A stretch of 9,733 nt of DNA from a bacterium (GTDB lineage Bacteria > Thermosulfidibacterota > Thermosulfidibacteria > Thermosulfidibacterales > JALWSI01). The stretch is taken from contig JALWSI010000003.1 in NCBI GenBank assembly GCA_027080315.1, positions 1 to 9,733 of the forward strand, given 5' to 3'. Under the pieces are notes generated by a model, which was not told where the DNA came from, did no database searches, and saw only the letters and a list, made by a program, of their open reading frames with translations. Position 1 is the first letter of the stretch, and each line of letters opens with the position of its first letter. A program made the translations under genes and the position numbers. Below are positions 1 through 9,733 of this stretch, in pieces.

Positions 1-585
1 GAGGTGCTCAGGTTCTTCCTGCTGGGCAGCCACTACCGCACCCCAATAGACTTCTCACAAGAGTCCCTTGAAGAGGCCCACGAGGCCATGAATAGGCTCT
101 ATCGCACCCTTGAGGCCAGGGCCGAGGTGAAGGAAAAGCCCGAGAAACCCTCCTCTGAGGGCGAGAACTTAAAGGCCCTTCTTGAAGAGAAGAGCCGGGA
201 CTTTGATCAGGCCCTACTGAACGACCTCAACTCCGCCCTTGCCATGGCCAAGGTGTTTGAAGGGGCCCGGGAGGTTAACAGGTATCTGAAGCTGTCAGGG
301 GACAGCCTGAGCCAGAAGAGCGCCGCCTTGGAGAGCTGGGACGGCATCGTCTCTAAGTGTCAGAAGATATTCGGCATCTTGAACGAGGATCCTGCCACCT
401 GGTTCACCTCTGGGGCAGAGTTGCCCATGCCTGTTGAAGAGATAGAGGCCCTTATTGAGAAGCGTAACCAGGCACGCAAGGCCAAAAACTGGGCCGAGGC
501 AGACGCAATAAGAGACCAGCTTAAAGAGAAGGGCATTCTGTTAGAGGATAAGCCTGGGGGCAAGACGGTCTGGCGTATAGCCTAA
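1..585 (+). CDS. cysS: Cysteinyl-tRNA synthetase, C-terminal part (5' end outside window)
   Basis: Charges tRNA-Cys with cysteine in the cytoplasm. Only the last 194 codons are present: the frame is open from base 1, so the GTG at 4 is an internal Val and not a start. The fragment opens with LRFFLLGSHYRTPIDFS, matching the conserved CysS segment at the entry to the DALR-type anticodon-binding domain (family form SHYRSPLNFS). It continues with the helical stretch LNSALAMAKVFEGAREVNRYL-like, typical of that domain. The end, RNQARKAKNWAEADAIRDQL followed by a GGKTVWRI-like tail, is the signature CysS C-terminus. The catalytic Rossmann domain, zinc ligands and KMSKS loop lie upstream and cannot be judged. 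The gene stops 117 bp before typA and no disruption is visible. Identification is firm. Confidence 0.95.
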   Translation, partial: EVLRFFLLGSHYRTPIDFSQESLEEAHEAMNRLYRTLEARAEVKEKPEKPSSEGENLKALLEEKSRDFDQALLNDLNSALAMAKVFEGAREVNRYLKLSGDSLSQKSAALESWDGIVSKCQKIFGILNEDPATWFTSGAELPMPVEEIEALIEKRNQARKAKNWAEADAIRDQLKEKGILLEDKPGGKTVWRIA

Positions 586-615
586 GCCTGCACCTCAACC
601 TTTTTAAGCCAAAAC

Positions 616-641
616 GACTCCACGCCATTGGCGGAGGGGTC
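616..641 (+). terminator. Imperfect hairpin after cysS, possible terminator
   Basis: GACTCC (616-621) pairs with GGGGTC (636-641) with one G-T pair, and CGCC (623-626) pairs with GGCG (630-633) around an ATT loop. A small internal loop separates the two stems. It is followed by TCTTT, a weak U-tract. The position 31 bp after the cysS stop fits a terminator, but the poor T-run leaves this uncertain. Confidence 0.35.
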
Positions 642-659
642 TCTTTGTGGTAGAGGCAG

Positions 660-683
660 CCCTCACCTTTACGAGAGGGTTTT
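660..683 (+). other. Short stem with T-run just before typA
   Basis: CCCTC (660-664) and GAGGG (675-679) can form a 5-bp stem with a 10-nt loop, followed by TTTT (680-683). It lies just upstream of the typA ribosome-binding site, so it could be a weak terminator or a leader hairpin. Five base pairs is marginal and could be chance. Confidence 0.25.
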
Positions 684-689
684 AAAAAC

Positions 690-695
690 AGGAGG
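690..695 (+). promoter_or_regulatory. Ribosome-binding site that sets the typA GTG start
   Basis: AGGAGG ends 7 nt before GTG 703. This decides the start in favour of GTG 703, since no ATG is available near the family N-terminus. The second codon is TTG, at 706. Confidence 0.8.
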
Positions 696-702
696 TTTTT
701 GA

Positions 703-2535
703 GTGTTGAAGAGAAACGAATCAATAAGAAACATAGCCATAATAGCCCACGTTGACCACGGCAAGACCACCCTTGTTGATGCCATGTTCAAGCAGAGCGG
801 CATCTTCAGAGAGGGCAAAGAGGTTGAAGAGCGGGTGATGGATCGCATGGACCTTGAGCGTGAAAGGGGCATCACCATAGCCGCCAAGAACTGCTCTGTT
901 TACTGGAACGGTGTGAAGATAAACATCGTTGACACCCCTGGACACGCAGACTTTGGTGGAGAGGTTGAGCGGGCCCTCTCTATGGTTGACGGCGCCCTTC
1001 TGCTGGTTGACGCAGCAGAAGGCCCCCTGCCTCAGACCCGCTTTGTGCTAAAAAAAGCCTTAGAGCGCAACCTGAAGTTAATGGTGCTCATCAACAAGGT
1101 GGATCGCAAAGACGCAAGACCAAACGAGGTGCTAAACGAGATCTACGATCTCTTCATTGACCTTGATGCCTCAGACGAGCAGATAGAGTTTCCCGTCTTT
1201 TACACCATAGGTAGAGACGGGGTGGCCAAGGAGGATCTTGAGGGGGAACGGCAAGATCTGACCCCCATATTCAATGCCATTTTAGATCACATGCCTGCAC
1301 CTGAGTACGATCCAGATGCCCCCTTTCAGATGCTGGTTAGCGACCTTGACTACTCCGACTATCTCAACAGGCTGGCAGTGGGCAGGATCCTTAACGGCAA
1401 AGCCCACATAAACGAGACCTTGGTTTGCATAGGCAAAGACGGCCAGCAGATTCCCCTAAGGGTCACCAGCTTTCAGGTGTACCACGGCCCCAGGTTCAAA
1501 GAGGTGAAAGAGGTTGAGGCTGGAGACATAGTGGTGCTGGCGGGGATAGACGAGGTCTGCATAGGGGACACCATAGCATCTAAGGAGAATCCCCAGGCCC
1601 TGCCCAGAATAGAGGTTGAAGAGCCCACAGTCTCAATGCTTTTCACCGTGAACACAGGCCCCTTTGCAGGAAAAGAGGGGCGATTTGTGCAGTCAAGCAA
1701 GCTGAAAGAGCGGCTTCTTAAAGAGTCTTTGAAGAACGTATCTATACAGGTTGAAGAGGCCCCTGAAGGGGACGGTATGATTGTGAAGGGACGGGGCGAG
1801 CTTCAGATGGCCGTGTTGATAGAGAGTATGCGGCGGGAGGGCTACGAGTTCTGCGTTGGGCGTCCCAAGGTTATCCTGAAAGAGAGAGACGGCAAGATAC
1901 TTGAGCCCATAGAGCACCTCTTTATTGACTGCGACGAAGAGTTTACGGGAATCGTCACAGAAAGGCTCTCTCAAAGAAAGGGGCAGATGATCAACCTTGA
2001 GAACAGAGGCTCTGGCAGGGTGAGGCTTGAGTTTCTGGTGCCTTCCCGGGCCCTGATTGGCTACAGGGATCAGTTCTTAACCGACACCAAGGGAACCGGT
2101 ATTATGAGCTCTTATCTTCACGGCTATCAGGAGCACAAGGGGGAGATCCCATCGCGGTTCTCTGGGTCTATCGTGAGCGATCGCCAGGGTACCGCTGTGG
2201 CCTATGCCCTGTTCCACCTTGAGCCAAGGGGAGAGCTCTTTATTGAGCCCGGAACCCCTGTGTACGAAGGCATGATCATAGGGGAGCACAATCGGGATAA
2301 AGACATAGATGTGAACCCCTGCAAAGAGAAGAAGCTCACCAACATGAGGGCTGCAGGCAAAGACGACAACATTCTTCTTAAACCGGTGAGGCCCATGACC
2401 ATAGAAAGGGCCATCACCTTCATCAAAGACGACGAGATGGTAGAGGTGACCCCTCTCTCTATTCGGCTGAGAAAGGCGGTGCTGTCGGTTCAGGCAAGAA
2501 GAAACCCAAACAGCCAGTTTTTGAAGGCAAGCTGA
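703..2535 (+). CDS. typA: Translational GTPase TypA/BipA
   Basis: Ribosome-binding GTPase of the EF-G/LepA superfamily, linked in other bacteria to large-subunit assembly and to growth under cold or other stress. The 610-aa length is normal for the family. G motifs: AHVDHGKTT (G1, about 15-23), RGITI (G2, 55-59), DTPGH (G3, 77-81) and NKVD (G4, 131-134). At the G5 position the usual S-A is replaced: the sequence reads FYTIGRDG around 166-173. Domain II and EF-G domain III/V-like folds follow. The TypA-specific C-terminal domain is clear from [17 protein letters not shown] and the downstream [11 protein letters not shown]. The start is GTG 703, supported by AGGAGG 7 nt upstream. It follows cysS by 117 bp and may be its own transcription unit. 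Composition matches cysS, and nothing looks broken. Identification is firm. Confidence 0.97.
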
Positions 2536-2586
2536 CCGCTCTTTTGGGATAGCCATCTGGGAGTTATATCCCCACTTTGAGCAGAG

Positions 2587-2624
2587 CCCTGGGGTAATCA
2601 CAACCAGGGTCAACCCCATCTTTT
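2587..2624 (+). terminator. Overlapping alternative hairpins with T-run after typA
   Basis: Two mutually exclusive stems are visible. CCCTGG (2587-2592) can pair with CCAGGG (2604-2609). GGGGT (2591-2595) can pair with ACCCC (2613-2617), and that second stem is followed by ATCTTTT, a modest U-tract. It lies about 50 bp after the typA stop, where a Rho-independent terminator would be expected. The stems are short and the second loop is 17 nt, so this is tentative. Confidence 0.35.
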
Positions 2625-2661
2625 GAACTTGGGTAGAATTCTACGCCCTTGGTTCAAGGGC
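2623..2661. repeat. Back-to-back palindromes in the intergenic gap
   Basis: GTAGAATTCTAC (2633-2644) is a perfect 12-nt palindrome. It directly abuts GCCCTTG-GTT-CAAGGGC (2645-2661), a perfect 7-bp hairpin. TTGAAC (2623-2628) can also pair with GTTCAA (2652-2657) and enclose the 12-mer, which would compete with the 7-bp hairpin. No T-run follows on either strand, so a simple terminator is unlikely. A protein-binding site or RNA switch element is possible; function unknown. Confidence 0.5.
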
Positions 2662-2676
2662 AAAATAATTTGAAAA

Positions 2677-2698
2677 TTCTCACGATTTTCTCACGATT
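2677..2698 (+). repeat. Perfect tandem 11-bp direct repeat, candidate operator
   Basis: TTCTCACGATT occurs twice with no gap (2677-2687 and 2688-2698). Two sites one helical turn apart on the same face is the layout bound by PhoB/OmpR-family response regulators, where the repeats often take the place of the -35 element. It lies about 130-155 bp upstream of the first operon gene. The repeat is directly visible; the regulator is inference. Confidence 0.55.
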
Positions 2699-2709
2699 AT
2701 GATTAGGAT
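2698..2709 (+). promoter_or_regulatory. Possible -10 region for the pilus operon
   Basis: TATGAT (2698-2703) differs from TATAAT at one position, and TAGGAT (2704-2709) is a second option. Neither has a good -35 at 16-18 bp; TTGAAA (2670-2675) is too far away, at 22 bp. An activator bound at the adjacent direct repeat could compensate. The resulting leader would be about 120 nt and contains short hairpins such as CCTCA/TGAGG (2741-2745/2751-2755) and a pyrimidine-rich run (2765-2788). Weak evidence. Confidence 0.25.
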
Positions 2710-2815
2710 GTAAGGTGGAGGGCTTTATGGTGCTCCTAATCCTCAAGAGGTGAGGGGAATCCCACCCTCGCCTCTCCTCTCTCTTTTTGAGAGGGTTTAG
2801 TGAGAAGAAACAGGC

Positions 2816-2821
2816 AGGAGG
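2816..2821 (+). promoter_or_regulatory. Ribosome-binding site that sets the ATG 2832 start
   Basis: AGGAGG ends 10 nt before ATG 2832 and lies inside the longer open frame that begins at TTG 2787. It supports ATG 2832, which also gives a clean signal peptide. Confidence 0.7.
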
Positions 2822-2831
2822 TAGCAGCATT

Positions 2832-3299
2832 ATGAAAAGGCCGTTTTTTATTTTGGTGGTGATGGCGCTTGTGGGAATAGTCTTTGCGCCTGCAACCAGT
2901 GCGCGATGGTACACGAATAAGGATTTGAAGCATGTTAAAAGACCTTCCCATACCACAGTAAAATCCAACACAACAAACACTCTTTCTGAACACAACCCAA
3001 AGACACAGAAAGAGAAAACTAAAAGAATCTATCTCTACAAGGTAAAAAACGCTCCTAAGGCATTAGACCAGTTATTCCTAACCGGCAAATTAGTGAACCT
3101 AAGCAAGAAGTCAGCTACCATAGACGTGTTCTCAGAAAGTTGTAGAGGAAGAAAAAGATTTTTTATCAATAAAGAATTATTTAAGATCCTAAAGACTCAT
3201 TTAGAAAATTACAAGAAATGGATACACTTTGGCGTAGATTCCAATACTTGCAGTAGTAAGAATAGAATCTCAATAACAGAACTCTATGTAGAAGAATAA
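2832..3299 (+). CDS. Small secreted basic protein, unknown, first gene of the pilus operon
   Basis: A 155-aa protein I do not recognise. ATG 2832 is chosen over the in-frame TTG 2787 because AGGAGG lies 10 nt upstream and the protein then begins with a normal signal peptide: MKRP, a hydrophobic core, then ATSA before RW, with likely cleavage near residue 24. The mature part has a polar Lys/Asn/Thr-rich linker (about 25-63), then a more structured region with alternating hydrophobic residues and only two cysteines (in ESCRG and NTCSS), which could form one disulfide. Lysine is abundant, so the protein should be strongly basic. It ends 14 bp before pilY1 and so is probably co-transcribed with it. 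Base composition is AT-rich like the first half of pilY1. It could be a PilY1 accessory protein, analogous in position and size to PilY2 of Pseudomonas, but I see no sequence similarity to claim. Confidence 0.8.
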   Translation: MKRPFFILVVMALVGIVFAPATSARWYTNKDLKHVKRPSHTTVKSNTTNTLSEHNPKTQKEKTKRIYLYKVKNAPKALDQLFLTGKLVNLSKKSATIDVFSESCRGRKRFFINKELFKILKTHLENYKKWIHFGVDSNTCSSKNRISITELYVEE

Positions 3300-3313
3300 A
3301 GGAGGGGTAAAAT

Positions 3314-6300
3314 ATGAAAAACTATGGACTTAAATCAGTAGTGATTTTAACTATTATATTACTACCTATCTTTACAAACCAACCCAATACTAAAGCACAA
3401 ACTGATATGCATAAATACTGTACTGTTCCACCTTTCATAGGAGGACAATCAGTATCACCTAATGTCCTACTTGCAGTAGATGTGAGTGGATCAATGGGAT
3501 GGTGTGCTTATAATCCAGATAGTGACGGTACGGGTTGTTGTTATAATCTAAATGGTTGCGGATGGACATATAAAGGAAATGAAGAAGGATATTTTGATCC
3601 AGAGAAAGTCTATCATTATGATCTCACATCCTGGATGTGGGTTGAGACAACAGGTCAACCCAACAGTTGTCCAAACAACATTTTTGGGTTATATTACGGG
3701 ATGTATAATCCTCATTCTAACTATAAAGGCAGCTGCTTAAACTTCCTTTTAATGAGAAGAATTGATCTGGTTAAGTGGGCAATGACAGGGGGAAAGCCAT
3801 TTTCATGTTGGATACGCGATGTTAATAGGTGTGATCCTGAAACCTATGGAAACCCAGAAAGTCAAGTGAGCTGTGATGATGAAGGCTGTATTCTAAGCTT
3901 GTACAACGGCTATACTGTTAAGGTTCCTTGGGAAAGAATAAATGACGGATTATTGTTCAAGCTCAAAAGACTTAAAACTAGTCCTCGTATGGGTGTAGTA
4001 TTTTTTAGAAACAATGGGATTGTGGACAAAGTTTACATAGGCGATTTTACCAGCAGCGCTAACTTTGATGGGGTTAATCCCTATAAAAACACCATAACGC
4101 ACATCAACTATATATCACCAGATGGTTCCACTCCTACAGGCCCTGCCATGTGGGATGTATATAATTATTTCGCCCAGAATGATCCCCAATATGGAGGATT
4201 CACACCCCAACAAGGAGAAGGGGATAAGTGGCGTAACCCAATGTATCAGTGTTTTGATTACAACAATAATAGTATCTGTGAGGGTAACGAACTTCAACAA
4301 GTATGGTGCGCTAAAAACTTTGTAATCTTAATGAGCGACGGACAGTGGAATACTGGAGCTACCACAGGACGAAGGAGGACTACTAGTTGTTCCATAGATG
4401 ATGGGTTTGAAGATAGCTCTTCTGATCCGGTAGTCCCCTCATATTGGTTACATAAAAAAGGGTTTACCAACTCAAAAACAGGGGTAAAAAGCAACGTTGA
4501 AGCAGTTTACGGAATAGGTATGTGGCTTGGAGGAACCGGAAAAACTTCTTTGGAAAATGTGGCTATGTACGGTTCCTTTGATACCTCTCATGGAGACTGG
4601 CCAGATGAACTGGATAATTATCCCCAAAATGAATGCGGTCCTATTGATGACTGTTGTGGTAGATACAACTGTGGCAAGGGAAGCTCTTGCACTCCTTTAC
4701 CTCCTTCCTCCCCAGACTGGGATCAAGATGGAGACCATATCCCTGACACCTTTTTCTCTGCCAGCAATGCAAAAGAGCTAAAAAGTTCTATAGAAAATGC
4801 TATGTGGGATATTTTGAAAAGAGCATCTTCGGGAACCTCCACCACGGTTCTTTCCGAGCGTACTCAGGCAGGAGCCACTATGCTACAAGCACTATTTTAC
4901 CCAGAAAAAGTGATGGGGGGTATTCCTATTCAATGGGTAGGCTATCTAAATACTCTTTGGCTCTACAAAGGCAACACCGGCAATTCTACAGCAATAAGGG
5001 AAGATACGGTCCATGACTACATATTAGACCTTAAAGAAGACTACATCATACACTTTTTATTGCAAGACAACTCCACCCTTATTGTTAATCGCTGTCAGGA
5101 CACCGATGGCGACGGGCTATGCGATGCCCCTCAATCGCCCAAGAACCTTGATGATCTAACAACAGTATTTGAGGAAGGTCATGTATTACAAGATCAAAGC
5201 GCAACAAGCAGAAACATTTTTACTTACAACGGTATAGATTTCTCTGAAGATCACGCCAGCGAGCTACAAGAAGCCTTGTTGATGGAAAACCAAGAAGATA
5301 CCAAAAAGCTCATTAACTACATACGAGGAGAGGACTACGCTGGTTGGAGAAACCGCACTACAGGAGAAGGTAAAGTTTGGAAGCTGGGCGACATAATTTA
5401 TTCTACCCCTAAGGTGGTCTCGTACGAAGACTACGCTGTTATCATTGTCGGCGCCAACGACGGCATGCTCCACGCCTTTAAGCTTGGAAAGAAGAAACCG
5501 ATATCTTCAGGCTACCAGATTGTTAAACTCTGCGATTCTGCAACGGGTACTTGCACACAAACAGAACTGGGCAAAGAGCTGTGGGCGTATATTCCCGGTA
5601 ACCTTTTACCCTACTTAAGGTATTTGAAAGAGCCAGACTATTGCCACCTCTACTACGTTGATCTCACCCCCTTTGTATTCACATACACCGATTCTCAAAA
5701 CACAGAGCACAAGATTCTCATTGGAGGCATGAGACTTGGTGGGGCCTGCAACTGCACCGGCGAAGAAGACCAGTGCGTAACACCACCAGCAGACGCCAAC
5801 GGAATGGGACTATCTTCTTACTTCGCTTTAGACATAACCAACCCAACATCTCCACAGTTTTTATGGGAGTTCACCAATAGCGATCTCGGTTTCACCTATT
5901 CGGGCCCCGCGGTGTTTAGTATAGGGGGACATCCTGTTGTAGCGTTTCTGTCTGGGCCCACACATTACGACGGAGAATCAACACAAAACCTGAAGGTCTT
6001 CATACTCACCCTTGATCCCGACACCTTTGCCATACAGAACACCCAAATTATAGACACCGGTAAAACCAACGCCTTTGGTGGCAGGCTATTTGTGAACAAA
6101 ATCGGCGTAGATTCAGCGCTGGCAAACCGCGTCTTTTTTGGCTACACCCAGAAGGCAAGCGGCTCGTGGAAAGGAGGGGTCTACAAACTGGAGTTAAGCT
6201 ACGACACCAATAACCAATCCATTGTACCAACCCTCACCGAGGTTATTACCGACATAGGCCCAATAACAGGAGGGGTTAGAGAAGGCACCTGCCAGCAAAG

Positions 6301-6868
6301 TAGCATGATCTACTTTGGAGAAGGCCGTTACTTTACAGGCAGCCAGGACGACCCCACAGCAATACGCCGACTATACGGGGTTAGCACCCAGTGCAACGGC
6401 TGCACCCTTAGTGATCTCAGCAACTCCACCAGACTTGACTCAATCTCGTCTGGAGGAGGCAACGGCTGGTACATAGAGCTTTACGGAAGAGATGGCGGAT
6501 ATAATGCCGAGAGAACGATAACCGATCCCCTGGTGTATGCAAAAGACTACAACGTGGTATTCTTCACCACCTTTCAGCCCACGGCAGATATTTGTGGCTT
6601 TGGAGGACGCACCTTTGAGTTTTTAACCAAGTGCTCAAACGGAGGAGCCATTGATAGCACCGATGTTAGCAACATCAAAGGCAAGCTCTTCTTGCAGGTC
6701 TCAACGGGTCAGATCAAAGAGTTCACAGCTTCAGACCTGACAAATCGCCGCTCTGAGCCGGTGCAAGGTGTGCCCAGCGAGTTTCCACCCACCTTTGTCG
6801 CTCCCTACTTCGGAGGCGGGGGCAGCGGTCTTAAAGAGGGAGAGATCATCCACTGGTTAGAACGATGA
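3314..6868 (+). CDS. pilY1: PilY1-type pilus tip adhesin: von Willebrand A domain plus beta-propeller
   Basis: Calcium-dependent type IV pilus tip/adhesin protein that, in known systems, docks on the minor-pilin complex and affects adhesion and pilus extension/retraction. 1184 aa, near the usual 1000-1200. Signal peptide at about 1-29 (cleavage near KAQ-T). A VWA domain follows: NVLLAVDVSGSM (50-61) gives the MIDAS DxSxS, DGSTPTGPA (270-278) the MIDAS Thr loop, and VILMSDG (337-343) the later Asp. EF-hand-like loops occur at 315-326, 468-478 and 596-607 (DTDGDGLCD). The C-terminal PilY1 propeller begins around 688 with KVWKLGDIIYSTPKVV and the hallmark VGANDGMLHAF. I count about 33 cysteines, with a cluster at 441-459. 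AAGGAGG lies 8 nt before ATG 3314. The stop overlaps the next start (ATGA). Codon use and GC change near codon 595-690. Confidence 0.93.
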   Translation: MKNYGLKSVVILTIILLPIFTNQPNTKAQTDMHKYCTVPPFIGGQSVSPNVLLAVDVSGSMGWCAYNPDSDGTGCCYNLNGCGWTYKGNEEGYFDPEKVYHYDLTSWMWVETTGQPNSCPNNIFGLYYGMYNPHSNYKGSCLNFLLMRRIDLVKWAMTGGKPFSCWIRDVNRCDPETYGNPESQVSCDDEGCILSLYNGYTVKVPWERINDGLLFKLKRLKTSPRMGVVFFRNNGIVDKVYIGDFTSSANFDGVNPYKNTITHINYISPDGSTPTGPAMWDVYNYFAQNDPQYGGFTPQQGEGDKWRNPMYQCFDYNNNSICEGNELQQVWCAKNFVILMSDGQWNTGATTGRRRTTSCSIDDGFEDSSSDPVVPSYWLHKKGFTNSKTGVKSNVEAVYGIGMWLGGTGKTSLENVAMYGSFDTSHGDWPDELDNYPQNECGPIDDCCGRYNCGKGSSCTPLPPSSPDWDQDGDHIPDTFFSASNAKELKSSIENAMWDILKRASSGTSTTVLSERTQAGATMLQALFYPEKVMGGIPIQWVGYLNTLWLYKGNTGNSTAIREDTVHDYILDLKEDYIIHFLLQDNSTLIVNRCQDTDGDGLCDAPQSPKNLDDLTTVFEEGHVLQDQSATSRNIFTYNGIDFSEDHASELQEALLMENQEDTKKLINYIRGEDYAGWRNRTTGEGKVWKLGDIIYSTPKVVSYEDYAVIIVGANDGMLHAFKLGKKKPISSGYQIVKLCDSATGTCTQTELGKELWAYIPGNLLPYLRYLKEPDYCHLYYVDLTPFVFTYTDSQNTEHKILIGGMRLGGACNCTGEEDQCVTPPADANGMGLSSYFALDITNPTSPQFLWEFTNSDLGFTYSGPAVFSIGGHPVVAFLSGPTHYDGESTQNLKVFILTLDPDTFAIQNTQIIDTGKTNAFGGRLFVNKIGVDSALANRVFFGYTQKASGSWKGGVYKLELSYDTNNQSIVPTLTEVITDIGPITGGVREGTCQQSSMIYFGEGRYFTGSQDDPTAIRRLYGVSTQCNGCTLSDLSNSTRLDSISSGGGNGWYIELYGRDGGYNAERTITDPLVYAKDYNVVFFTTFQPTADICGFGGRTFEFLTKCSNGGAIDSTDVSNIKGKLFLQVSTGQIKEFTASDLTNRRSEPVQGVPSEFPPTFVAPYFGGGGSGLKEGEIIHWLER
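5093..5128 (+). other. EF-hand-like calcium loop codons in pilY1
   Basis: Encodes CQDTDGDGLCDAP (residues 594-606) with Asp at loop positions 1, 3, 5 and 9. Pseudomonas PilY1 has a functional calcium loop just before its propeller, and this site sits in the matching place. It also marks the approximate left edge of the GC-richer half of the gene. Confidence 0.65.
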
Positions 6869-7350
6869 ACAACAAGGGGCTCACCTTGATAGAGCTCATG
6901 GTGGTTATTGCCATAATCGCCATGCTGGCCAGCTTTGCCCTCACAGGCTACCGTGCCGCCAGAAACAAGGTTAAAGTAGAAGGCGAGATAAAGGCCCTTT
7001 ACGGCGATCTTCAAAACGCCCGGCTAAGGGCCTTTGCTGAAAAGAGAGCCTGGGGCATATACTGGGGCAGCTCACCTTTCACCTCTTACGATGTGAGATA
7101 CGACACCGACGACGATGGCAACCTCACAGACTCTGGAGGCTACCGTTCTGCAGGTACCATCTCTAATCTTGAGTTCCCTATAAAGGTAAACACAAGCAGC
7201 AAGTGCGTGATCTTTAAAAAGTCGGGATTAACAACCACCCTTTTGAGCTTTCACATAGACGGTACTGAGGCTGAGTACGACTGCATAAGCGTATCAGCTA
7301 CCCGAATAAAGATGGGAAAATGGGATGGAAGCACCTGTGTTAAAAGATAG
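6865..7350 (+). CDS. FimT/FimU (GspH)-type minor prepilin
   Basis: Minor pilin of the H type; in known systems it joins the I-J-K proteins in the priming/tip complex. 161 aa. The class III leader is very short: MNNKG, with cleavage before L6 in KG-LTLIELMVV. Glu10 is the +5 residue needed for N-methylation and subunit packing. The hydrophobic helix runs to about 26, followed by the typical amphipathic part ending GDLQNARLRAFAEKR, a GspH/FimT hallmark. The globular part has cysteines at 114, 140 and 158, and DTDDDGNLTD at 80-89, which resembles a calcium loop. ATG 6865 overlaps the pilY1 stop as ATGA, and no strong Shine-Dalgarno sits at the right distance, so translational coupling is likely. 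FimT versus FimU cannot be told apart here, so no gene symbol is given. Confidence 0.88.
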   Translation: MNNKGLTLIELMVVIAIIAMLASFALTGYRAARNKVKVEGEIKALYGDLQNARLRAFAEKRAWGIYWGSSPFTSYDVRYDTDDDGNLTDSGGYRSAGTISNLEFPIKVNTSSKCVIFKKSGLTTTLLSFHIDGTEAEYDCISVSATRIKMGKWDGSTCVKR

Positions 7351-7744
7351 TTTTAGTAAACGCCTTGGAGACAAGGGATTCACCCTTATAGAGGCACTTA
7401 TAGCTATAACCCTCATGGCCTTGATGGTGCTGGCCCTTTACCGCTCTGCCGCCCTTATTATGAGCCGCAACATTGAGAACACCATGGCAGATACCTGTGT
7501 AAAAGTGGCCAACGAGAAGATAGAAGAGCTAAGAAACGCACCTTTCAGTTCGTTACACCAAGGTACTATAACCGACAATGTGACCAGAGAGGTGCGTAAC
7601 TTCACCCGCACCTTTGAGAGAACCACTGTGTTGGTTAAATGGGACACTCTTTTTACCGTAACGGTAACGGTGAAATGGAGACTGCACGATGGAGAAAAAG
7701 AGCACACCTGCAGCCTGAGCACGGCAATAGCAGACCATGGGTAG
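7325..7744 (+). CDS. pilV: PilV (GspI)-type minor prepilin
   Basis: Minor pilin of the I type, expected in the inner-membrane priming complex with the H, J and K proteins. 139 aa. Leader of 18 residues, then cleavage at DKG-FTLIEALIAITL, with Glu23 at +5. The hydrophobic helix is followed by the PilV/GspI-like segment VANEKIEELRN (61-71). Two cysteines (58 and 129) could bridge the helix end to the C-terminal strand. The region TLFTVTVTVKW (108-118) is a clear beta strand. The start overlaps the preceding gene by 26 bp. ATG 7325 has GGGA 7 nt upstream; GTG 7337 is an alternative that would shorten the leader by four residues. It overlaps the next frame by 8 bp if that gene starts at ATG 7737. 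Confidence 0.85.
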   Translation: MEAPVLKDSFSKRLGDKGFTLIEALIAITLMALMVLALYRSAALIMSRNIENTMADTCVKVANEKIEELRNAPFSSLHQGTITDNVTREVRNFTRTFERTTVLVKWDTLFTVTVTVKWRLHDGEKEHTCSLSTAIADHG

Positions 7745-8864
7745 GAGATTTAAGTTGAACAGCAAAGGAATGACCTTAATAGAGCTTCTCATAGCCCTTG
7801 TGGTGGTCGTGGTGGTGCTGGCCGCCGCCTTCTTGAGTTTCTCTCGGCTTTTTCAAGGCTTTAAATCACAGACAAAGGTCTCTGAGACCCATATATCCTC
7901 TTTGATAGGATTTGAGCTCTTAAGAAAAGACATTGAGATGGCAGGATTTGGAGTGCCTTACAACTGCACTGGAATAACCTTTAGCGAGGCTGCCTCTTCA
8001 CCAGAGTCAACCTACAACGAGAACGGAACCGAGGTTCATCCGTTTACTGTAGGCAACAATGCAGGAAGCGGCAGTTCTGACTACCTTGTTGTACGTTCAG
8101 CCTTTAACCCCGAGGACGAAGAGACACTAAAATGGGCCTATTTTATTGCCAACGGCTCGGCCATAAACAACAACACCTCTTCACCTTGCAATGCTATAAC
8201 CCTGCAGCAAGGTGGAAGCGGTAACTTCAGCGAGCACACCAATGTAGTGGTGGAAGACGGGGAGAGCGATCTAAGAAACATAATGAAAAGAGGAACCGGA
8301 GCAGATAGCTGGAAGTTCTACATAAAGAGTGGAACCCTTGATAAATGCCCCGATAATGCCCCTGACGAGAACAGGTTCTACCTGGTCTACGGCTTAGACA
8401 AAGACACCGATACCTCTCCCAATGTACGAATGCCCTTCAACCGGGTTGACTACTTTATCGCCAAGCCTTCAAGCGGCAGCATGCCCACAAAATGCGAGTC
8501 AACCTCTTACGAGCTTTACAGGGCCCAGCTCAGACACTCTGACGGCAAGCTCAACAAACAGCCCATATTGGACTGCGTAAAAGACTTTCAGGTGGCCTTT
8601 TACGTGGTTGACAACTCCTCTTCCACCTGGCAAGAGGCCCCTCCCTCCTCGGCAGCAGACCAGAAACACAAGATAAAAGAGGTAAGACTCTTTATACTCT
8701 ATCAAGAAGGGCAAAAAGAGAGAACTCAGGTCTCAAATGCCACCCTCACCCTTGGAGACAACGACACAGGAACCTTGAGCAGCTTCTCTCCCACAGGGGA
8801 CGAAGTGTACTACCACTGGCGGGTTAAAGAGATAAGCGTGAAGCCCATGAACCTTGAAAGGTAG
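7737..8864 (+). CDS. pilW: PilW (GspJ)-type minor prepilin
   Basis: Largest globular minor pilin, J type, expected in the tip complex. 375 aa from ATG 7737; the family is usually about 250-350. Cleavage at NSKG-MTLIELLIA gives Met at +1 and Glu16 at +5. The hydrophobic helix contains six consecutive valines (22-27). LRKDIEMAGFG (62-72) is the PilW hallmark. The C-terminal domain has several cysteines, an Asp-rich stretch GLDKDTDTSPN, and DCVKDFQVAFYVVD, as usual in PilW. Start choice is open: ATG 7737 has no clear Shine-Dalgarno, while TTG 7755 has GGAG 7 nt upstream and would give the short leader MNSKG, very like MNNKG of the FimT-like protein. Either start leaves the mature protein unchanged. 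Confidence 0.87.
   Translation: MGRRFKLNSKGMTLIELLIALVVVVVVLAAAFLSFSRLFQGFKSQTKVSETHISSLIGFELLRKDIEMAGFGVPYNCTGITFSEAASSPESTYNENGTEVHPFTVGNNAGSGSSDYLVVRSAFNPEDEETLKWAYFIANGSAINNNTSSPCNAITLQQGGSGNFSEHTNVVVEDGESDLRNIMKRGTGADSWKFYIKSGTLDKCPDNAPDENRFYLVYGLDKDTDTSPNVRMPFNRVDYFIAKPSSGSMPTKCESTSYELYRAQLRHSDGKLNKQPILDCVKDFQVAFYVVDNSSSTWQEAPPSSAADQKHKIKEVRLFILYQEGQKERTQVSNATLTLGDNDTGTLSSFSPTGDEVYYHWRVKEISVKPMNLER
7744..7747 (+). promoter_or_regulatory. Ribosome-binding site pointing to TTG 7755 for pilW
   Basis: TAGGAG (7742-7747), with core GGAG, ends 7 nt before TTG 7755 and overlaps the pilV stop. It argues that translation of pilW may begin at TTG 7755 and not at ATG 7737. Confidence 0.45.
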
Positions 8865-8871
8865 AACGCCA

Positions 8872-9429
8872 ATGAAGAGGTATAGTTTAGCGGAAACTTG
8901 CAAAAACCAAGAAGGTGTGGCTCTTATAGCCACCCTCATTCTTGGCATGATAGCCATCTCTTTCACCCTCACCATGGTATATCTGGCAAGGGAGGGAACC
9001 AGAATGGCAGGTATAGAGGGCCGATACCAACAGGCCCTGCAGGCAGCCAAGGGAGGGGTAGAGGTTGCAATAGACTACATCAGGCATTGCCCCAACACAA
9101 ATAACAACAAACCCAACTTTGAGACTTCAACCAGCGACAAACTTGAATGCTATTGCTACATAGGGCCTGCGGGCAACAGAACCTACTATCCCTGCGACGG
9201 TGCCACAAGCCAGTTCTCTTCTCTATTTGGAGAGTACCAAACAAACGTCTCTATTCAAATCAAAACCCTGGTATCTACCTGCGATAACGCCCCTTACGAC
9301 AACACCAAAAGAAGCGTGGTCAGCTTCTGCAAGATCACCTCAAGCGCCACAAACACCAACCCCGACAAGAAAGAACACGCCTCTGTTGAGGCTCTGTACA
9401 AGATGGTGACCGAAAACTGCAATAACTGA
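8872..9429 (+). CDS. pilX: PilX (GspK)-like minor pilin
   Basis: Minor pilin of the PilX/K type, expected to cap the H-I-J-K complex. 185 aa from ATG 8872, with AAAGG about 11 nt upstream; the in-frame TTG 8854 would add six residues but lies inside pilW. The pilW stop is 7 bp before this start. Leader of 15 residues with cleavage at NQEG-VALIATLILG. Position +5 is Ala, not Glu, as expected for GspK/PilX-type subunits. GTRMAGIEGRYQQALQAAKG (42-61) matches the PilX N-domain signature, with Lys60 where the family normally has Glu (AAE). The mature protein has seven cysteines (73, 93, 95, 108, 137, 153, 183), an odd number. It is the last gene of the operon on this strand. Confidence 0.85.
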   Translation: MKRYSLAETCKNQEGVALIATLILGMIAISFTLTMVYLAREGTRMAGIEGRYQQALQAAKGGVEVAIDYIRHCPNTNNNKPNFETSTSDKLECYCYIGPAGNRTYYPCDGATSQFSSLFGEYQTNVSIQIKTLVSTCDNAPYDNTKRSVVSFCKITSSATNTNPDKKEHASVEALYKMVTENCNN

Positions 9430-9453
9430 AAAGGGACGGCTGCAAAGACCGTC
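9429..9453 (-). terminator. Hairpin and T-run between convergent genes
   Basis: On the minus strand GACGG and CCGTC (plus-strand 9449-9453 and 9435-9439) form a 5-bp GC-rich stem with a 9-nt loop, followed by CCTTTT. This fits a small terminator for the minus-strand gene. It lies immediately after the pilX stop codon, so the hairpin could also serve the operon, although no T-run follows on the plus strand. Confidence 0.4.
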
Positions 9454-9484
9454 AACTTACAGATTCCTTATGCAACAACAGAGA

Positions 9485-9733
9485 TCACCTCACCTCAAAA
9501 ACGTTCACCGTGATCTCCCAAGGGGTGGTTGACCAATCTACTCCGGCAAAGTCATCAGGCACCGTGTCAGGCACCACAAGGGTGTACCAGTAGTGGGTAC
9601 CAGAGGGCACTATTGAAGAATCGGTCCCCACGGCGGTCTCGGGGAAAATAGAGGTCTTTGCCACCTCGCCGCTAACGCTGCTCTTCCACGAAGATAGGGT
9701 GTCAGGAGGCTGAAACTTCAGGTTGTTTGAGCT
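9485..9733 (-). CDS. Unidentified protein, C-terminal 82 residues (5' end outside window)
   Basis: An open minus-strand frame runs from the window edge to TGA at 9487-9485. It has no start codon inside the window, so it is the 3' end of a gene extending past base 9733. The 82 visible residues are rich in Ser, Thr, Val and Pro, with no Cys and no Met. They end THYWYTLVVPDTVPDDFAG, then WEITVNVFEVR. Alternating hydrophobic residues suggest beta strands of an exported or surface protein, but I do not recognise a family. GC and codon use match the minor-pilin genes (GTG, ACC, GAC common). It converges on pilX with 55 bp between the stops. That it is coding rests on the uninterrupted 82-codon frame and codon use, so confidence is moderate. 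Confidence 0.6.
   Translation of the reverse strand, partial: SSNNLKFQPPDTLSSWKSSVSGEVAKTSIFPETAVGTDSSIVPSGTHYWYTLVVPDTVPDDFAGVDWSTTPWEITVNVFEVR

Follow-up and report, generated by a model that had tools for sequence, protein, structure and literature searches.

A probable mosaic pilY1 gene in Thermosulfidibacterota: an AT-rich leader and head joined to a host-like propeller and minor-pilin operon

When one gene of a predicted pilus-tip operon is AT-rich at its front and GC-richer at its rear, it may be asked whether its parts share a history. The question is raised by pilY1 in a 9,733-nucleotide stretch of bacterial DNA (the window), which is one whole contig (JALWSI010000003.1, positions 1 to 9,733; GenBank assembly GCA_027080315.1) of a draft metagenome-assembled genome of the phylum Thermosulfidibacterota (1.84 Mb, 253 contigs). 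A reading of the sequence alone, the original prediction, had noted a compositional break inside pilY1 and suggested that the exposed head of the protein, together with the small leader gene in front of it, was acquired or exchanged as a module onto a resident propeller and minor-pilin unit. The observation is confirmed and the module-exchange interpretation is supported, with corrected boundaries and as part of a broader pattern. The gene is very probably a mosaic, in which an AT-rich tract of leader and head is joined in frame to an operon whose propeller and minor pilins are host-like.

The genome of the window is referred to as G000 and belongs to family f1. The phylum is represented in the collection by nine genomes in three families, with G001, G003 and G005 in f2 and G002 and G006 in f3; a wider set with the class of Desulfurella (Campylobacterota) and others provided 35 pilY1 loci. 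The relevant features of the window are as follows.

2832-3299, plus strand: leader gene directly upstream of pilY1; 155 aa, predicted signal peptide, two conserved Cys, GC 0.368
3314-4825, plus strand: PilY1 head, residues 1-504, putative exchanged module; 62-63% identical to the G003/G005 heads, GC at third codon positions (GC3) 0.337
3479-3496, plus strand: motif DVSGSM resembling a metal ion-dependent adhesion site (MIDAS), PilY1 residues 56-61, conserved across loci
4826-4840, plus strand: SSGTS hinge, residues 505-509, where head similarity ends in G000 and in other exchanged pairs
4841-5377, plus strand: neck, residues 510-688, AT-rich, lacking a close relative, of ambiguous origin
5093-5128, plus strand: EF-hand-like loop, inside the neck
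5378-6868, plus strand: PilY1 propeller, residues 689-1184, starting at the WKLGDIIYSTP motif; host-like codons, weak PF05567 match, best relative G006
6865-7350, plus strand: GspH/FimT-type minor pilin (PF07963, PF12019 weak), best match G006
7325-7744, plus strand: PilV-type minor pilin (PF07963)
7737-8864, plus strand: PilW-type minor pilin (PF16074, PF07963)
8872-9429, plus strand: minor pilin, called PilX-like from its place as fourth gene behind pilY1; N-terminus hydrophobic

Different relatives for head and propeller

Against G003 and G005 of f2, the full PilY1 protein is 56% identical over residues 15-716 and only 36-38% over residues 704-1034; G002 and G006 of f3 match its second half at 42-50%. 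Taken separately, the head is 62-66% identical to the heads of G003 and G005 (62-63% over 506 aa) and 46% identical to that of G396a, and the propeller finds its best relative in G006 (56% over 474 aa). Scored per 50 residues, identity between G000 and G003 is 46-78% between residues 51 and 500 and 16-50% beyond. The rpoB of G000 is about equidistant from the two families (70-73%).

Separate trees of the two halves, the check that the original prediction had named in advance, are discordant. In the propeller tree G000 groups with G006 (support 100/96), f2 forms one clade (100/100), and a grouping of G000 with G003 and G005 is rejected by the approximately unbiased (AU) test (p 5e-9). In the head tree G000 joins G003 and G005 (99/97), adjoining G396a and then the Desulfurella and G387 heads, and AU tests reject both G000 with G006 (p 2e-7) and f2 monophyly (p 4e-6). 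The AU rejections hold under a mixture model on 15 rows as well, where support for the G000, G003 and G005 head group falls to 82/85. No full-length collinear relative with the same composition step was found; this absence, the tree conflict and the foreign codons of leader and head described below together support module exchange.

Composition and codon usage

The contrast between an AT-rich front and a GC-richer rear of pilY1 is borne out at every scale. In 500-nt windows GC is 0.34-0.45 across 3001-5500 and 0.47-0.52 across 5251-7250, with 0.34 near 3000-3500 and 0.51 after 6000. PilY1 residues 1-500 have GC 0.403 and GC3 0.336, and residues 501-1184 have GC 0.484 and GC3 0.523. The leader, noted as sharing the AT-rich character of the head, does so (GC 0.368, GC3 0.406), and the corresponding values are 0.48-0.49 and 0.53-0.60 for the minor pilins and 0.526 and 0.644 for typA. 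About 160 kb of contigs sampled from this genome serve as host background, with a GC of 0.514; the minimum among their 251 1.5-kb windows is 0.453, and the minimum of GC3 over 500 codons is 0.50. The switch in tyrosine codons is also present (TAT/TAC 20/8 in the front half, 8/26 in the rear half; Fisher p 3e-4), and the halves differ when two-fold pyrimidine codons are pooled (p 1e-7).

The GC3 change point is placed at residue 646, with a 2-log-unit range of residues 546-700 (nt 4949-5413), and none of 500 permutations was as strong. The AT-rich tract may extend to about residue 650-700. The change is more a ramp than a step, with GC3 at 0.18 in residues 1-96 and at 0.38 afterwards. The upstream edge of the tract is weakly defined (best position 2916, range 2618-3021, log-likelihood ratio 4.6).

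In leader residues 26-155 and in the head, the choice of synonymous codons is best explained by AT-rich genomes of the Desulfurella class; the own genome ranks 15th of 18, and a foreign ranking of this kind is seen in 0 of 83 of the genome's own genes. From residue 700 of the propeller onward, and in the minor pilins and typA, the own genome ranks first. As a separate observation, typA (703-2535) is 84% identical to typA of G005, compared with 72% for rpoB, and no match at this level is present in the other genomes of the phylum, not even in G003 of the same genus as G005; judging from sequence comparison, typA may itself have been transferred.

The hinge and the neck

Comparison of G000 with G003 and G005 places the best break 6 residues past the end of the head, at SSGTS (range -33 to +19), and conservation peaks at 0.75 at residue 506. 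Ten further pairs of the 22 listed break no more than 13 residues from the hinge, although some share lineages, so the pairs are not independent; they include G001/G002, G002/G132, G001/G132, G006/G410 (with a wide range), G397/G398, G396a/G397, G001/G007 and G410/G403. A DNA-level crossover was sought at the hinge, where exact identity between present-day pairs extends over no more than 5-10 nt at a stretch, so that homologous recombination at this site is neither shown nor excluded. The compositional change had been placed close to the EF-hand loop at 5093-5128. The loop does lie within the GC3 range of residues 546-700, but the homology break is about 90 residues earlier, and it is the SSGT hinge (nt 4826-4840), not the EF-hand, that forms the homology junction.

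Between hinge and propeller lies the neck of some 180 residues, whose codon fit is intermediate or foreign (own genome rank 11). G000 and G006 do not become more alike until residue 676, close to the conserved WKLGDIIYSTP motif and past the hinge break, and the origin of the neck is ambiguous for this reason.

The leader gene

Homologues of the leader were found only at G003, G005 (42% identity) and Desulfurella, in each case just upstream of pilY1. The protein has no Pfam or NCBIfam family match and a weak match only in PHROGs (E 0.0035). A structure model gives the mature protein five or six strands and a single helix, but its confidence (predicted local distance difference test, pLDDT, 53) is too low to search for similar folds. 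The four closest leaders have C104 in common; a second Cys occurs near residue 140 in 4/4, not in one alignment column. In the G000 leader an insertion of about 50 residues (2907-3030), which the G003, G005 and Desulfurella leaders lack, separates the signal peptide from the conserved domain.

More generally, most loci with pilY1 as first gene have a small open reading frame of 90-155 codons directly before it, often overlapping its start by 4 nt. In 20 loci, mostly pilY1-first operons, leader similarity follows that of the head (Mantel r 0.45, p 2e-4) and not that of the propeller (r 0.11, p 0.12). The data support the view that leader and head belong to one exchanged cassette, foreign codons beginning at about residue 26 of the leader. 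By analogy, the leader protein could help the particular head beside it to fold or stay stable in the periplasm, a role that we propose tentatively, with slightly less than even confidence.

Recurrence at other loci

A comparable decoupling recurs in relatives from two phyla, as if the pilus tip were a tool with exchangeable parts. Over 20 loci, similarity of the heads shows no correlation with that of the propellers (Mantel r 0.07, p 0.18). Minor-pilin similarity, compared in a second set of 20 loci, goes with the propeller (r 0.37, p 0.005) and not with the head (r -0.02, p 0.48). In many of the 35 loci the head has one closest relative and the propeller another. Some pairs have heads in common and propellers not (G001/G002, G006/G410, G395a/G397), and others propellers and not heads (G396a/G397, G001/G007, G410/G403). 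G001 of f2, with a propeller like those of G003 and G007 and a head like that of G002 of f3, represents a second exchange in the same phylum. G396a has a head that goes with G000, G003 and G005 and a propeller that goes with G397, the head of which goes with G395a. A scan of viral contigs found no relative.

Several local observations may be recorded for these operons. Two layouts exist in the phylum (L026, L027, L031): pilins, an optional leader and then pilY1 in f2, and an optional leader, pilY1 and then pilins in G000, f3 and Desulfurella. The minor pilins and leader of G005 (L027), at GC 0.36-0.45, form one more AT-rich tip tract, the genome as a whole being near 0.59. The pilY1 genes of G395a and G398 (L193, L196) are 92-100% identical in DNA over most of their length and 47-69% in about 400 nt of the head (about residues 58-190), a local hypervariable patch. 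One of the two pilY1 copies of Desulfurella acetivorans (L025:7953-11427) is split into overlapping frames of 370 and 821 codons, and the other is intact.

Mechanism, direction and rival explanations

The events were probably as follows. An AT-rich tract, comprising the PilY1 head and the larger part of the leader gene, would have entered an operon whose propeller and pilins already matched host codons, joining in frame at the conserved SSGT hinge, with natural transformation as a putative route of DNA delivery. In the established model of type IVa pili the propeller has to match the minor pilins and the head points outward, so that a new head would leave pilus assembly intact. In the midpoint-rooted tree the clade of this head falls within the Desulfurella-class heads. 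G003 and G005 were considered as direct donors and rejected; since their heads are GC-richer (GC3 0.48-0.59), we infer that the donor was an unsampled AT-rich lineage. The propeller and minor-pilin unit had been called resident, which fits its codons, but its phylogeny and pilY1-first gene order go with f3 and Desulfurella; an older transfer of the whole unit is possible on these grounds.

Several points weigh against the proposed exchange or its details. No sampled genome holds a close donor, the best head relatives being 62-66% identical, and the direction is drawn from codon usage and a midpoint-rooted tree. The composition break (546-700) and the homology break (about 504) differ, so the downstream edge is ambiguous, and the best protein match of the neck is G006 (38% over 173 aa), which is the propeller relative. 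Other pairs break 120-460 residues downstream of the hinge or inside the head. Leader and head are not always together, as G396a has a G000-type head and a G391-like leader.

The exchange might have run in reverse, with head and leader older and the propeller and minor pilins replaced long ago from the f3/Desulfurella side, or with G003 and G005 taking their head from the G000 lineage. Old replacements lose their foreign codon signature, and propeller and gene order go with f3 and Desulfurella even though rpoB is about equal to both families and rpoC slightly nearer f2 (74% versus 65-68%). We nevertheless regard reversal as improbable: the leader and head codons are the foreign ones now and those of propeller and pilins are native, and the G003 and G005 heads, being GC-richer, are not the direct source. 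An assembly or binning chimera has to be considered in a draft of 253 contigs in which the window is one whole contig. It is very unlikely, as host-like codons border the AT-rich tract on either side and the frame is kept across the hinge, which would need two joins; G003 and G005 independently show their own conflict of head and propeller, and conflict is also seen at loci on long contigs, G391 (243 kb) and G392 (1.69 Mb).

Least credible is strictly vertical descent of a single gene, with faster evolution and a drift to AT in its exposed head, although a head richer in AT than its propeller is also found in five other genomes of the phylum (G003, G002, G006, G001 and, slightly, G007). The head is more conserved than the propeller in comparison with G003 and G005 (62% versus about 40%) and less so with G006, which a rate difference cannot produce; the AU tests reject a common tree, the shift is carried by synonymous positions, and Desulfurella-class loci have no consistent head/propeller GC3 step.

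Domain matches and neighbouring sequence

Matches to known domains are sparse. The propeller matches PF05567 weakly (E 3.6e-5, 23.3 bits; curated cut-off 28.1 bits), and the head has no VWA match in Pfam and no match in a PDB sequence search. A full-length PilY1 structure model from three rows reached pLDDT 28.6 and was not used. The minor-pilin operon after pilY1 comprises four genes, three with PF07963 in Pfam, one of these also with PF16074; the PilX-like gene at 8872-9429 has no Pfam match above cut-off. At 9485-9733 a minus-strand open frame runs off the contig end.

Relation to known pilus-tip systems

In the type IVa pilus model the tip is occupied by PilY1, with strand complementation attaching its C-terminal part to PilX and with its N-terminal domain outermost (PMC13190605). 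The coupling of pilins to propeller and the decoupling of head from propeller fit this published model. The locus resembles the PilY1/PilC family (PF05567 propeller) in its conserved C-terminal part, a putative propeller, its variable N-terminal region with a MIDAS-like motif and its operon of FimT/PilV/PilW/PilX-type pilins. It differs from typical members in its PF05567 score below the curated cut-off, in the small exported leader before pilY1 and in the separate histories of head and propeller.

Diversity of PilY1 N-termini and exchange of whole operons are already known (PMC10374093, PMC13190605). Myxobacterial PilY1.1, PilY1.2 and PilY1.3 have a conserved C-terminus and different N-termini, as does the G000 protein, and horizontal acquisition was proposed for PilY1.3 (PMC13190605). 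That study compared whole genes; in the part of its text available, "recombination" and "domain shuffling" occur 0 times and neither recombination within the gene nor a head-linked leader is reported. In Acinetobacter a whole seven-gene tip cassette with comC/pilY1 is exchanged by recombination, and the N-terminal half is the most variable (PMC10374093). G000 is similar in that predicted tip genes were probably exchanged and the N-terminal half varies most. The Acinetobacter type has breakpoints outside pilY1 and pilins that move with it; in G000 the break is inside pilY1 and the pilins go with the propeller instead of the head. The closest known parallel for an accessory protein linked to a head, and a model for the role of the leader, is TfcP of Myxococcus xanthus, a small periplasmic cytochrome c from a pilY1 operon that stabilises PilY1.1 (PMC8833165); unlike this cytochrome, the G000 leader has no family match. 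Searches of an open-access library turned up no account of a pilY1 gene exchanged internally, at a fixed hinge and together with a linked leader, and absence there is no proof of novelty.

Head variation is thought to set what the pilus binds, and its origin has mostly been described for whole genes or operons. Exchange of the head would alter what the pilus sticks to or senses. The separate histories of head, propeller, leader and pilins distinguish the part that fits the pilus from the part that faces outward, and single out the uncharacterised leader family as a candidate head-specific partner. It is conceivable, although we hold this more loosely than the mosaic itself and at somewhat below even confidence, that pilY1 of these deep-branching bacteria is a standing cassette system in which leader and head are exchanged between species and phyla at a fixed hinge, the leader serving as head-specific chaperone. 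If so, pilus-tip specificity would be inherited separately from the pilus.
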